Assembly (NCBI GenBank): GCA_903858815.1
Contig: CAIOKE010000022.1
Location: 1 to 49,245, forward strand
Reading direction: 5' to 3'
Length of the DNA: 49,245 bases
DNA from: an uncultured Planctomycetaceae bacterium
Lineage (GTDB): Bacteria; Planctomycetota; Planctomycetia; Planctomycetales; Planctomycetaceae
The notes beneath the pieces were generated by a model that saw nothing but the letters and a program-made list of their open reading frames with translations, made no database searches and was not told the DNA's origin. Position numbers and translations under genes: made by a program. Below, piece after piece: positions 26,478 through 29,816 of this stretch. Within the stretch, counting starts at the first letter, position 1; each line of letters begins with the position of its first letter.

Positions 26478-26975
26478 TCAGCCTGCGTAGAACGGATGAG
26501 CGGCTGTGTCGCGCTGTGAGAGAACCGTGTCAACGCACGGCTGATTCTTCATGGCACGCTCGATAGACAGTTTGGTCGCTTCGTAGTTGTACTGATAGAT
26601 CTTCTTGTCGTCGGCAGCGTCCCAGTGAATGAAGACACCGCAGACGATGACGAGGTTTTCGGCCTGATCCTTTGGGATCGCGCCGCTTTTAACGCAGTCG
26701 GTCACAGCATCAGCAACGGCCTTCTGAGCCGGGCCGAACATCTGCACAGCCTGGCGGGCACCTTTGATGGTGACCTTGGTGATCATCACGGTGCTGGGCT
26801 TTACAGCAACGTTCGGAGTGAGAACGGCCAGCAGATTGCTGTGGCCGTGCTTCTGATCAGCCAGAGCGTTGGCGAATGCCGTGCCGACCGGACCGGCCTT
26901 GTCGCCAATCAGCAGGTCGATATGAGCAACTTCATTTCCTTCGCCGACAAGAGCTTCCCCGACGTACATCGACAT
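26478..26975 (-). CDS. fae: Formaldehyde-activating enzyme
   Basis: The product is 165 aa and full length. Fae speeds condensation of formaldehyde with tetrahydromethanopterin to methylene-H4MPT. The family hallmarks are present: [20 protein letters not shown] with the catalytic His (residue 18 counting Met), [60 protein letters not shown], and a C-terminal [17 protein letters not shown]. The ATG has an A/G-rich leader (AAAGGATCTGAAAAG). It diverges from an ATP-grasp gene of the type seen in H4MPT clusters, supporting an active formaldehyde pathway. H4MPT dehydrogenase and cyclohydrolase genes are not in the window. Confidence 0.95.
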
Positions 26976-27209
26976 CTTTTCAGATCCTTTTTTTGAACCC
27001 TGCGTGAGTGGACAAGGTTACCAAAACCACGGAAGAATACCGGAAACAGCCCGGGTCACAGAACGATCGAGAAGTGTGTTCGAGCCGTTTTGTGACAATG
27101 ACCGATGCTGATCAGACACTAAGGATTGCGATTTTCTGTCGGATGTTCAACTGACCGGGATATTGGTTCCGCAGTTTCGTCGGAACCGGAGTGGAAATGG
27201 GGGATTGCG

Positions 27210-28427
27210 GTGACTGGGGAGGTACTGCTGGCGGGGGCCAGTGTGCGATCACTGGCTGAGTCAGCGGTGGCGGCCGGTTTTCGGCCGTGGTGCTGTGATT
27301 TTTTCGGAGATCGGGATCTGCAGCAGCTGCTGTCTCAGTGTGGTGGCCGTTACCTGCGGACGTTGAGTTCGTTTGCCGAGCTGCCAGGAGTGCTCGAGTC
27401 CGTTCCACTGCAGATTCCGCTGTGCTGGTCGGGTGGTCTGGAGAATGCGGTTGAGATTCTGGAGCAGTCCGGTCGCAGTGGTCGGCGCGTGTGTGGAGCG
27501 ACGGCAGCGGCCGTGCGTGCGGTGCGAACGTGGCAGAATCTGCAGAGCTGGGTTGAGGATACGGGGGTACGGTTTCCGGAGACGATTTCGTCTGCCGAAC
27601 AGATTCCTGGTGGTGACTGGCTGCTGAAGCCTGTGCGCAGTGCGGGCGGTGCCGGGGTGCGACGACTTCGCGAAGGGGATGAGCCGCTGAGGGCGGTGGT
27701 GGGTGCGGGGGCAGGTACTGAGTATCTGCTGCAGCGATATATTCCCGGGGCACCGATTTCGATGGTGTTTCATGCGGGGGCGGAGCAGCTGCTGATGCTG
27801 GGATGCAGTCTGCAGTTTTGTGGCTGGCGATCCCTGGGGGCGGTGGCTGGTGAAGCTTTGTGGTGTGGCAACGGTGGGCCATTGAGACTTCCGGACAGGC
27901 TGCAGCGGCAGGCTGTTCGGCTGGCACTGCGGATTGTGCAGGGAGCGGGTCTGAGCGGTGTTTTCGGGGTGGATTTTCTGCTGAGTGCGGGTGAGTTGTG
28001 GCTGCTGGAAGTGAATCCGCGGATCCCTGCTTCGCACTGGATCTACGATGCGGGTCAGCGGGGTCTGGCAGTTCGCCTGCAAGTGACCGGGGAGGCTGAC
28101 AGGGTTGACCGGATCGGTGACCTGACCGGGTTTCGTGCACAGTTTGTGGTTTGGAGTGGTGAACCAACCGGGCCAGCGAGTGAGCTGTTGAATTCCGTTG
28201 CTGTGCCGGCGGGCATGCGGCTGGCTGATCAGCCTGTGTCCGCGCATGTCAGCGGGGAGGGGCCGGCGTGTTCTGTGTTGTTGAGTGCGGAAACGTGTGA
28301 CCATGCCAGCAGCCAGCTGGAACAAGCCGCCGGGGCTGAATCAGGGCTGCGGGAATTCTGGCAGCAGACATCCGCTGATCTGTCGTTGGCAATGCAGACG
28401 TATCAGCGGCATCTGCCGTCAGATTGA
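27210..28427 (+). CDS. ATP-grasp protein, probably tied to H4MPT-linked C1 metabolism
   Basis: The product is 405 aa from a GTG at 27210, chosen because GGGGGA precedes it and the N-terminal Rossmann-like strand (EVLLAGASVRSLAESAVAAG) then sits correctly. A TTG at 27126 would add 28 residues. ATP-grasp motifs are WLLKPVRSAGGAGVRRL, EYLLQRYIPGAPISMVFHAG and GVDFLLSAGELWLLEVNPR, with the conserved Glu/Asn metal ligands. Uncharacterised ATP-grasp genes of this kind accompany fae in methylotroph and planctomycete C1 clusters. That family knowledge and the divergent fae give the functional guess; the reaction is unknown. Its stop codon abuts that of lexA (TGATCA). Confidence 0.75.
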   Translation: MTGEVLLAGASVRSLAESAVAAGFRPWCCDFFGDRDLQQLLSQCGGRYLRTLSSFAELPGVLESVPLQIPLCWSGGLENAVEILEQSGRSGRRVCGATAAAVRAVRTWQNLQSWVEDTGVRFPETISSAEQIPGGDWLLKPVRSAGGAGVRRLREGDEPLRAVVGAGAGTEYLLQRYIPGAPISMVFHAGAEQLLMLGCSLQFCGWRSLGAVAGEALWCGNGGPLRLPDRLQRQAVRLALRIVQGAGLSGVFGVDFLLSAGELWLLEVNPRIPASHWIYDAGQRGLAVRLQVTGEADRVDRIGDLTGFRAQFVVWSGEPTGPASELLNSVAVPAGMRLADQPVSAHVSGEGPACSVLLSAETCDHASSQLEQAAGAESGLREFWQQTSADLSLAMQTYQRHLPSD

Positions 28428-29081
28428 TCAGGGTTGTGCTGGTTCAGCAGGTGTTGCTGCGGCTTCGGCCGCGGGCTGTGGTCGGCGGAAGCGACGGATC
28501 ACTCCGGTTAACACGCCCAGCAGCTGTCGGGTTGTGGGAACGTAGCTGCCGACACCCAGAGGAATCAGTTGACCGGATCCTTCCTGCACACTGCAGATGA
28601 CGACAGAGTGTCTGTCATCGAGTGCCACGACGTGACAGCCGGGAGTTACCTGAGCATCCCGGCTGATGATCAGGAAATCACCGCTGGCGATACTGAGTGG
28701 GGCGAAGTTGTTGCCTTCGACTTTGAGGCAGCCGAGATCCATGCTGTCGAACACTTCGCGAAAGCTGATGGTTTCGTCGAGTGAGACGGAGGGCTGGATG
28801 GGGCCGGAGGTGGCTGCCGTACCGATCAGGCGAACGTTCAGCCGATTCTGAGGTGACTCGGCCAGCTGGATTGCTCGCGACATATTCTGTTCGCGGCTGA
28901 TCAGTCCTTTTCGTTCGAGTGCTTTGAGGTGGCACATCACGCCGTTGGGTGAGCGAATGTCGAAGTGCAGTCCGATTTCGCGAACCGTCGGTCCGTAGCC
29001 TCGGTTGACGATCTTGTCACGGAGAAATTCATAGATTTCCCGCTGCCGTTTAGTCAGTGAGGTTTTTTTTCCTGCAGCCAT
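28428..29081 (-). CDS. lexA: LexA-like repressor lacking the self-cleavage residues
   Basis: The product is 217 aa. The N-terminal winged helix matches LexA well: LTKRQREIYEFLRDKIVNRG, GPTVREIGLHFDIRSPNGVM and HLKALERKGLISREQNMSRA. The C-terminal S24-like domain is recognisable, but its catalytic positions are changed. The Ala-Gly cleavage pair aligns with Thr91-Ser92 in LIGTAATSGP. The serine of GMSM is Asn125 in VEGNNFAPL. The lysine of VTVK falls at Ile162 in SVVICSV, and there is no lysine at all after residue 120. It should bind DNA and dimerise but not self-cleave. It may be a constitutive or differently switched repressor. A 12-bp palindrome lies 57 bases upstream. Confidence 0.85.
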   Translation of the reverse strand: MAAGKKTSLTKRQREIYEFLRDKIVNRGYGPTVREIGLHFDIRSPNGVMCHLKALERKGLISREQNMSRAIQLAESPQNRLNVRLIGTAATSGPIQPSVSLDETISFREVFDSMDLGCLKVEGNNFAPLSIASGDFLIISRDAQVTPGCHVVALDDRHSVVICSVQEGSGQLIPLGVGSYVPTTRQLLGVLTGVIRRFRRPQPAAEAAATPAEPAQP

Positions 29082-29137
29082 GAGTGCATTCCTGTCAGCT
29101 CTGTTCCGACGGCACTGTTTCCGGAAGCGAATGTTAG

Positions 29138-29149
29138 TTCGGATCCGAA
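29138..29149. promoter_or_regulatory. Candidate operator upstream of lexA
   Basis: TTCGGATCCGAA is a perfect 12-bp palindrome centred about 60 bases before the lexA start. LexA proteins usually repress their own genes through such sites, but the motif is not one I know as a LexA box. Confidence 0.35.
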
Positions 29150-29816
29150 TCGTTCACACTGCCAATCTCTGGGATCCGGTTCACTTTTTCAACAACTTGA
29201 TCGGTGATTTTTGTTTGGTGAAAAATCGAAAAATTTATCGATTTAACCGAGAATAGTTTGTTTTTTGCTTAGGTTTGGGGAATTCGAGGTGGGTGATCTG
29301 CCGTGCCCTGCAGTGAGTGGTGGGAAAACGACAAAGCTGCCGAGGCTGTGACATTTGCTGGATTGATTTGTTCACAACTGCTGCGAAGACCAGATCGCAG
29401 TCGCTGAGACGAAACCGATGGAGGCTGGATTCAGGGGAATTGCAGTGGGCTGGGTGGAGTTGCCGCCGAGTTGCCACTGAGTTGTGTACGGGGAAGGATT
29501 TGGGGGGGGGGGGGAGTGCCGGAGGGATTTGTCTGGATTGCAAGCTGACCGCAAACGTGGTTGAGCCACGAAAGCGGGATCGTGCCTGCGAGTTCATGAT
29601 CGTGGACTTATTTCGTTCAGGATCTCAGCATGCGGAGATCATATGTTGGGCATATGAGAGGCATGTGGGTCTGTTCGATACAGTCATCGTCATGGTGTTG
29701 GCGGAGGATAGCAGCAATCTGCGAGAAAATCCAACCAAAACTGCGAGGTCCTGCGGAACATCGGGAAATTGGATTCTGCGAGATTCTGCATGGGGCTACG
29801 TTCAGTTTGCGTCCGT
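29150..29816. other. Long gene-free stretch with a 13-G run
   Basis: Between lexA and the GT39-like gene there are about 735 bases without a convincing gene. Frames that cross it have irregular, Cys/Arg/Trp-rich translations. The region includes an AT-rich part (about 29200-29280) and a run of 13 G at 29502-29514. It also holds a near-repeat of CATATG around 29641-29656. I see no RNA gene I can name. Confidence 0.5.

Follow-up and report, generated by a model that had tools for sequence, protein, structure and literature searches.

The window, by which we mean the whole analysed stretch of 49,245 nucleotides from an uncultured member of the Planctomycetaceae, carries the lexA gene of a lineage in this family that appears to have lost autoproteolysis. 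Judged from its residues, the encoded LexA lacks the known self-cleavage chemistry. We think it probable that this non-cleavable LexA has been released from SOS control, and that any RecA-cleavable switch now lies with a second repressor, an XRE-S24 protein whose gene is joined to csrA.

The lexA gene of the window

The putative lexA orthologue (28428..29081, minus strand; 217 aa, stop codon within the range) was recognised from its open reading frame and from profile and PDB sequence matches, and every one of the nine PDB sequences that match it at E 0.001 is named LexA. The protein begins with a LexA winged-helix DNA-binding domain (residues 7-70; 28872..29063, minus strand), which scores 77.5 bits against Pfam LexA_DNA_bind (PF01726) where the cut-off is 23.7. 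It continues with an S24-fold C-terminal domain (residues 85-200; 28482..28829, minus strand), which according to prediction keeps the LexA/UmuD' fold and scores 21.3 bits against Peptidase_S24 (PF00717), just below the cut-off of 23.3. Against the NCBIfam lexA equivalog TIGR00498 the protein reaches 100.5 bits, below the cut-off of 110.95. Among the canonical features it thus passes for PF01726 and falls short for PF00717 and TIGR00498, and it has neither the Ala-Gly pair nor the Ser-Lys dyad.

The gene neighbourhood of lexA is not kept. Close to the gene in the window there is an ORF resembling a formaldehyde-activating enzyme (26478-26975, minus strand) and an ATP-grasp-like ORF (27126-28427, plus strand), both named by eye, and of 80 loci only L076 and L080 have these two neighbours beside lexA.

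Active-site residues

RecA-stimulated self-cleavage of LexA requires a Ser-Lys dyad. To assign its residues we aligned the window LexA with canonical LexAs from its own family, with E. coli numbering for reference. The scissile pair Ala84-Gly85 corresponds to Thr91-Ser92 (28806..28811, minus strand) and the nucleophile Ser119 to Asn125 (28707..28709, minus strand), both as the original prediction had them, and Lys120 is the last lysine, in agreement with its remark that none occurs past residue 120. The general-base lysine had been placed at Ile162 and this was off by one, the family alignment setting Cys163 (28593..28595, minus strand) against Lys156. Alignment with planctomycete LexAs had been proposed as a check, and it puts no serine and no lysine in the active site. 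Because scissile bond, nucleophile and lysine have all been replaced, there would be no known route for RecA-stimulated self-cleavage of this LexA, and the claim that the known Ser-Lys mechanism is not available to it holds.

Conservation, selection and predicted fold

The genus of the window (genus group g1) is represented by 18 genomes, G000 to G017, where G000 is the genome of the window, and LexA could be read in 16 of these. Ala-Gly is absent in 16/16 and Cys stands at the lysine position in 16/16, while the serine position is occupied by N in five, S in four, G in three, L in three and A in one. Such conservation across the genus, together with a dN that is low against dS (see below), rules out a sequencing error or a fresh mutation, and goes beyond chance. 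The two genomes not read are G012 (86% complete), which has just one weak PF01726 match, and G016 (79% complete), from which no LexA was obtained. Several PF01726 matches per genome are found in other members of the genus, three in G001 and two each in G011 and G014.

The S24 domain is under purifying selection. By the Nei-Gojobori method its dN was 0.007-0.173 against a dS of 0.10-2.03 in eight pairs of close relatives, some with dS near saturation. The DNA-binding domain had dN 0-0.042 against dS 0.10-1.86, lower in dN than the C-terminal domain in 7/8 pairs, and is hence the more constrained of the two. The recognition-helix region of the DNA-binding domain shows no change, with S44, P45, N46, G47, V48, H51 and L52 the same in all 29 rows of the clade and all 30 canonical rows compared. 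The loop at the old cleavage site has a conserved sequence of its own, and G87, P94, Q96 and P97 are present in 15/15 same-genus rows.

A structure prediction, which had also been suggested from the start, recovered the fold of the LexA C-domain and UmuD'. The model was made from 29 aligned sequences and has a mean pLDDT of 76.5 (mostly 70-90 in the S24 domain) and a pTM of 0.50; structure comparison matched it to LexA, to the C-domain of LexA and to UmuD'. Over whole chains the TM score is low (0.27-0.54 for the LexA chains among the first 11 matches), and it is better over single domains, 0.68-0.77 for the C-domain in four M. tuberculosis entries and 0.84 for the DNA-binding domain. Purifying selection and a fold that is predicted to be kept point to an S24 domain retained for something other than self-cleavage.

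Distribution in the Planctomycetaceae

Judged by the loci that carry names, relatives fall in the Planctomycetaceae, Fuerstiella and Schlesneria included; two close ones bear the title Candidatus Kuenenia and look like misnamed bins. PF00717 and PF01726 were searched in 148 genomes of the family, for which the counts per genome are complete and statements on single proteins concern those among the matches listed. LexA and S24 proteins from these genomes were aligned, and the LexA tree covers 82 genomes of the family (81 from the set of 148, plus G027) along with six outgroup rows. Left off the tree were genomes without a fetched LexA (those of genus g44 included), the fragments L075 and L192, the genomes G017 (61% complete) and G031 (78%), both with a non-canonical LexA, and G170, where a high-scoring LexA accompanies the non-canonical one. 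G113 and G115 have several LexA-type genes, of which the non-canonical one was used. By non-canonical we mean any departure from Ala-Gly, Ser and Lys.

The 58 non-canonical LexAs represent 15 genera and group in a single clade (SH-aLRT 94), which argues for a LexA lineage that lost autoproteolysis, and the canonical LexAs on the tree come from 24 genomes in 21 genera. The window LexA groups inside the LexA tree of the family, next to canonical rows, in a tree of LexA only and not of species. Since long branches meet and the catalytic columns were kept in, one loss and several are not separable on it, and an independent-pairs test of the contrasts between canonical and degenerate LexAs found a single pair (p 1, no power). 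The g68 group has kept Ser and Lys and changed the scissile pair alone, and in G120 Ala-Gly and Ser are kept and Arg replaces Lys. In the Fuerstiella-type clade, with 29 rows, the lysine position holds Cys in 26, and Ser, Phe and Tyr in one each.

Two further observations concern the winged helix. The g44 genomes (G077-G091) have 4 to 8 PF01726 matches each, an expansion of LexA-type DNA-binding domains, and an ORF in G027 (L074, contig C57) has by eye two tandem LexA-type winged-helix stretches and no apparent S24 domain.

The predicted LexA box

Canonical lexA promoters, 38 for a first version and 32 for a later one, some of them from close relatives, served to train a LexA box motif, and the predicted box is a palindrome near TAGTGNACNNNNGTNCACTA. 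The 95% and 99% points of shuffled sequences were 8.7 and 9.8 for the first version of the motif. When each promoter was left out of training, 22/32 canonical lexA promoters scored at least 9 and 10/32 fell short, as against 4/58 non-canonical ones (G070, G075, G022 and G066), with the box absent in 54/58. The lexA promoters of G070, G075 and G022, which belong to the Fuerstiella-type clade, still score at least 11. The region of about 250 bp upstream of the window lexA (29082..29331, minus strand) has no match to the predicted canonical box (best score 1.0, shuffle p 0.68).

The promoters of recA were outside the training set and were compared in 28 genomes, 10 canonical and 18 non-canonical. 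A score of at least 8 was reached by 5/10 of the former, the other 5/10 falling short, and by 0/18 of the latter (Mann-Whitney p 0.0003, for genomes that are not independent), and all of the 18 come from the Fuerstiella-type clade. As the predicted box is apparently lacking at recA and lexA, a departure of LexA from its SOS role is the simplest explanation. By eye, the recA promoters of several genomes in the genus of the window (L281, L276, L272 and others) share a block like TTCCCT-N17-TAAACT.

The box pattern also matches 13 bp before a gene for a Y-family polymerase in G165. Close homologues of this polymerase are present in 6/14 canonical genomes searched, and 5/6 have a box of at least 9.8; the scores, which are without a shuffle control, are 12.9 (G165), 13.2, 9.8, 11.7, 5.1 and 12.6. 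The polymerase gave no match at E 1e-20 in 10/12 genomes of the window's genus, G000 included, and only distant matches in G001 and G006, and since 8/14 canonical genomes are also without a close homologue, the absence in G000 is no evidence. In L291 (G109) and L298 (G162), ORFs that by eye resemble ImmA/IrrE-type peptidases are preceded by sites similar to the LexA box, at distances of 35 and 25 bp respectively.

No convincing intergenic box site was found in G000 when targets of LexA were sought, and the one hit that G000 has in common with G007 and G010 lies inside a coding sequence. As a word, the palindrome shows no enrichment: with at most one mismatch it has fewer sites in 80 genomes than the reversed control, and with two mismatches three genomes gave 4, 1 and 4 sites where the control gave 24, 21 and 15, a deficit that we do not interpret because the control word differs in composition. 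A motif search of the promoters of degenerate lexA genes, for an operator of their own, gave just an A/T-run motif.

A second S24 repressor behind csrA

A second intact lexA in the genome was named in the original prediction as something that would speak against it. Strictly there is none, as a profile search of the assembly (99.4% complete, 373 contigs) gave one PF01726 match, the window LexA itself; what the genome does have is one further S24 protein, with an XRE domain, and in this repressor Ala-Gly, Ser and Lys are all in place in the alignment. The XRE-S24 protein is 219 aa long as listed, or shorter if it starts as in its relatives, and scores 57.1 bits against HTH_3 and 96.5 bits against S24 (Pfam). 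Relatives that share 53% identity or more and extend over the XRE part are present in 23/148 family genomes, 14/16 of g1, 3/3 of g42, 5/8 of g43 and one of g69. More distant partial matches are found in g68, and G064 has a different XRE-S24 protein (L241) and a LexA of its own with a high-scoring S24 domain.

On the tree, a second S24 protein that is canonical or high-scoring accompanies 51/58 non-canonical LexAs versus 3/24 canonical ones (G018, G118 and G121), or 12/15 versus 3/21 when counted by genus; it was not found in 7/58 degenerate genomes. Of the 51, 47 were read as Ala-Gly, Ser and Lys, and those of G060, G141, G146 and G148 were taken from profile-match rows. Canonical G020, G028 and G105 have an extra weak S24 match and are not among the 3/24. 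The tree amounts to one independent pair, so the coincidence of a second S24 protein with the loss in LexA is an association and not a test. Off the tree, a high-scoring LexA plus at least two S24 matches is seen in G064, G123 and 14/15 g44 genomes. For DNA binding the second S24 proteins have either an XRE domain or a winged helix of divergent sequence, and the two winged-helix types checked match PF01726 with 43.3 and 41.8 bits, which makes the second protein in those lineages, by its sequence, a divergent and cleavage-competent LexA.

Directly upstream of the XRE-S24 gene there is a csrA-like ORF in 14/23 loci according to a motif rule. In G000 the CsrA domain gives 44.5 bits, and the stop of csrA overlaps with what is probably the start of XRE-S24. 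Further upstream in this genome are two large ORFs side by side that by eye look GTPase-like (L006, 7010-8836 and 8887-10815, minus strand). Behind a promoter-like -10 element at csrA-XRE-S24 we find a 20-bp inverted repeat, TGTTGG-N8-CCAACA, which is exact in 10/23 loci, differs by one mismatch in L221 and has variant forms in L226, L230, L231, L232 and L234; in L219, L220, L224, L229, L235 and L237 of the 23 loci examined it was not recognisable. A de novo motif search, run on 9 of 16 promoters, recovers this putative operator with a likelihood of 85.3, compared with 31.4 or less for six shuffles.

The one exact copy of the operator in G000 lies at the promoter of XRE-S24 itself, and when one mismatch is allowed the genome has 11 sites and the control 10. 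The arrangement suggests autoregulation of XRE-S24 and a narrow regulon. That XRE-S24 should have taken over the whole SOS regulon is not supported, given the single exact site and the near equality with the control.

Discussion

In the reading that we hold probable, the window LexA would bind DNA as a dimer, which RecA filaments could not inactivate through self-cleavage, and it would regulate non-SOS genes, either constitutively or under some other form of modulation, similar to what has been proposed for the LexA of Synechocystis. Loss of the LexA box would have uncoupled recA and lexA from it. XRE-S24, which seems to be the sole cleavage-competent S24 repressor left, would carry whatever RecA-cleavable switch remains, from a gene that overlaps csrA and is probably autoregulated via the TGTTGG-N8-CCAACA operator. 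One can go further and picture the SOS response as dismantled, with LexA a non-cleavable and perhaps thiol-based regulator, recA freed, and the RecA signal reaching, through a self-cleaving XRE-S24, the csrA operon to which this repressor belongs, so that damage would be answered at the mRNA level via CsrA and not by a transcriptional SOS regulon, and this extended scheme we consider doubtful.

The original prediction had SOS relieved by a ligand, a partner or a host protease. LexA would then still be the SOS repressor, removed by a protease such as ClpXP, a ligand or a partner protein, which fits a DNA-binding domain that is intact and constrained as well as the box-like site that G070, G075 and G022 keep upstream of lexA; HdiR of Lactococcus, according to passages of PMC8565304, needs Clp processing after its self-cleavage for full derepression. 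The predicted box is, however, absent at recA in 18/18 degenerate genomes and at the promoter of the window lexA, and given this absence we judge the explanation rather unlikely, and less likely than a loss of the SOS role. Regulation could also work through cysteines, if Cys163 and Cys118 (28728..28730, minus strand), or another cysteine, form a redox sensor that sets DNA binding. Both are frequent in the clade, Cys118 being present in 27/29 rows, and the conserved loop at the old cleavage site would be in keeping with such a function. Cys118 is, however, also found in 24/30 canonical LexAs and is therefore no innovation, and three clade members have Ser, Phe or Tyr at 163; we find the idea quite improbable.

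It might finally be asked if the window lexA has no role any more and is decaying, with control exerted by XRE-S24, as a lost catalytic site and the presence of a second S24 repressor could indicate. The excess of dS over dN in the C-terminal domain, with the DNA-binding domain tighter still in nearly every pair, is not what decay would leave behind, and a full LexA persists in 16/18 same-genus genomes, the other two being incomplete assemblies; we regard decay as highly improbable. A LexA that has left SOS control, with XRE-S24 carrying any switch that remains, is the account that we retain as probable.

Comparison with known systems

By title, we found no study devoted to the planctomycete SOS response in the open-licence literature, and a passage of PMC3108266 states that the E. 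coli LexA motif is not recognised by planctomycete LexA. The window LexA resembles canonical E. coli LexA in domain order, DNA-binding domain and predicted C-domain fold, and differs from it in having no scissile Ala-Gly and no Ser-Lys dyad and in scoring below the TIGR00498 cut-off. A retained LexA without self-cleavage chemistry is already on record for Synechocystis; what we describe here is the loss across 15 genera of one family on the LexA tree, beside sister genera with an intact LexA, and this proximity makes the steps of giving up or rewiring an SOS switch traceable and testable. Should the csrA-linked S24 repressor respond to RecA, translation in these bacteria would come under the influence of DNA damage.

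In passages of PMC3091678 and PMC7567884, the LexA of Synechocystis sp. PCC 6803 is described with Gly-Gly for Ala-Gly and Asp for the nucleophile serine, and is proposed, with a lexA mutant studied, to control non-SOS genes. Both are LexAs without Ala-Gly and the catalytic Ser. As far as those accounts go, the clade of the window differs in that the lysine is also changed, to a conserved Cys, and in that the loss spans 15 genera, most of them with a second intact S24 repressor; the window LexA is known here from its sequence, whereas that of Synechocystis has been studied in a mutant.

Phage-type S24 repressors are described in parts of PMC8565304 and PMC13148647 as serving DNA-damage responses where LexA is absent. 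HdiR, the non-canonical LexA of Bacteroidetes and FddR of Francisella resemble XRE-S24 in combining a phage-type HTH with an S24 domain that has Ala-Gly, Ser and Lys. Unlike the bacteria of those descriptions, the one studied here keeps a LexA, albeit one that appears non-cleavable, and its XRE-S24 gene stands apart in lying behind csrA, with a putative operator of which the genome has one exact copy.
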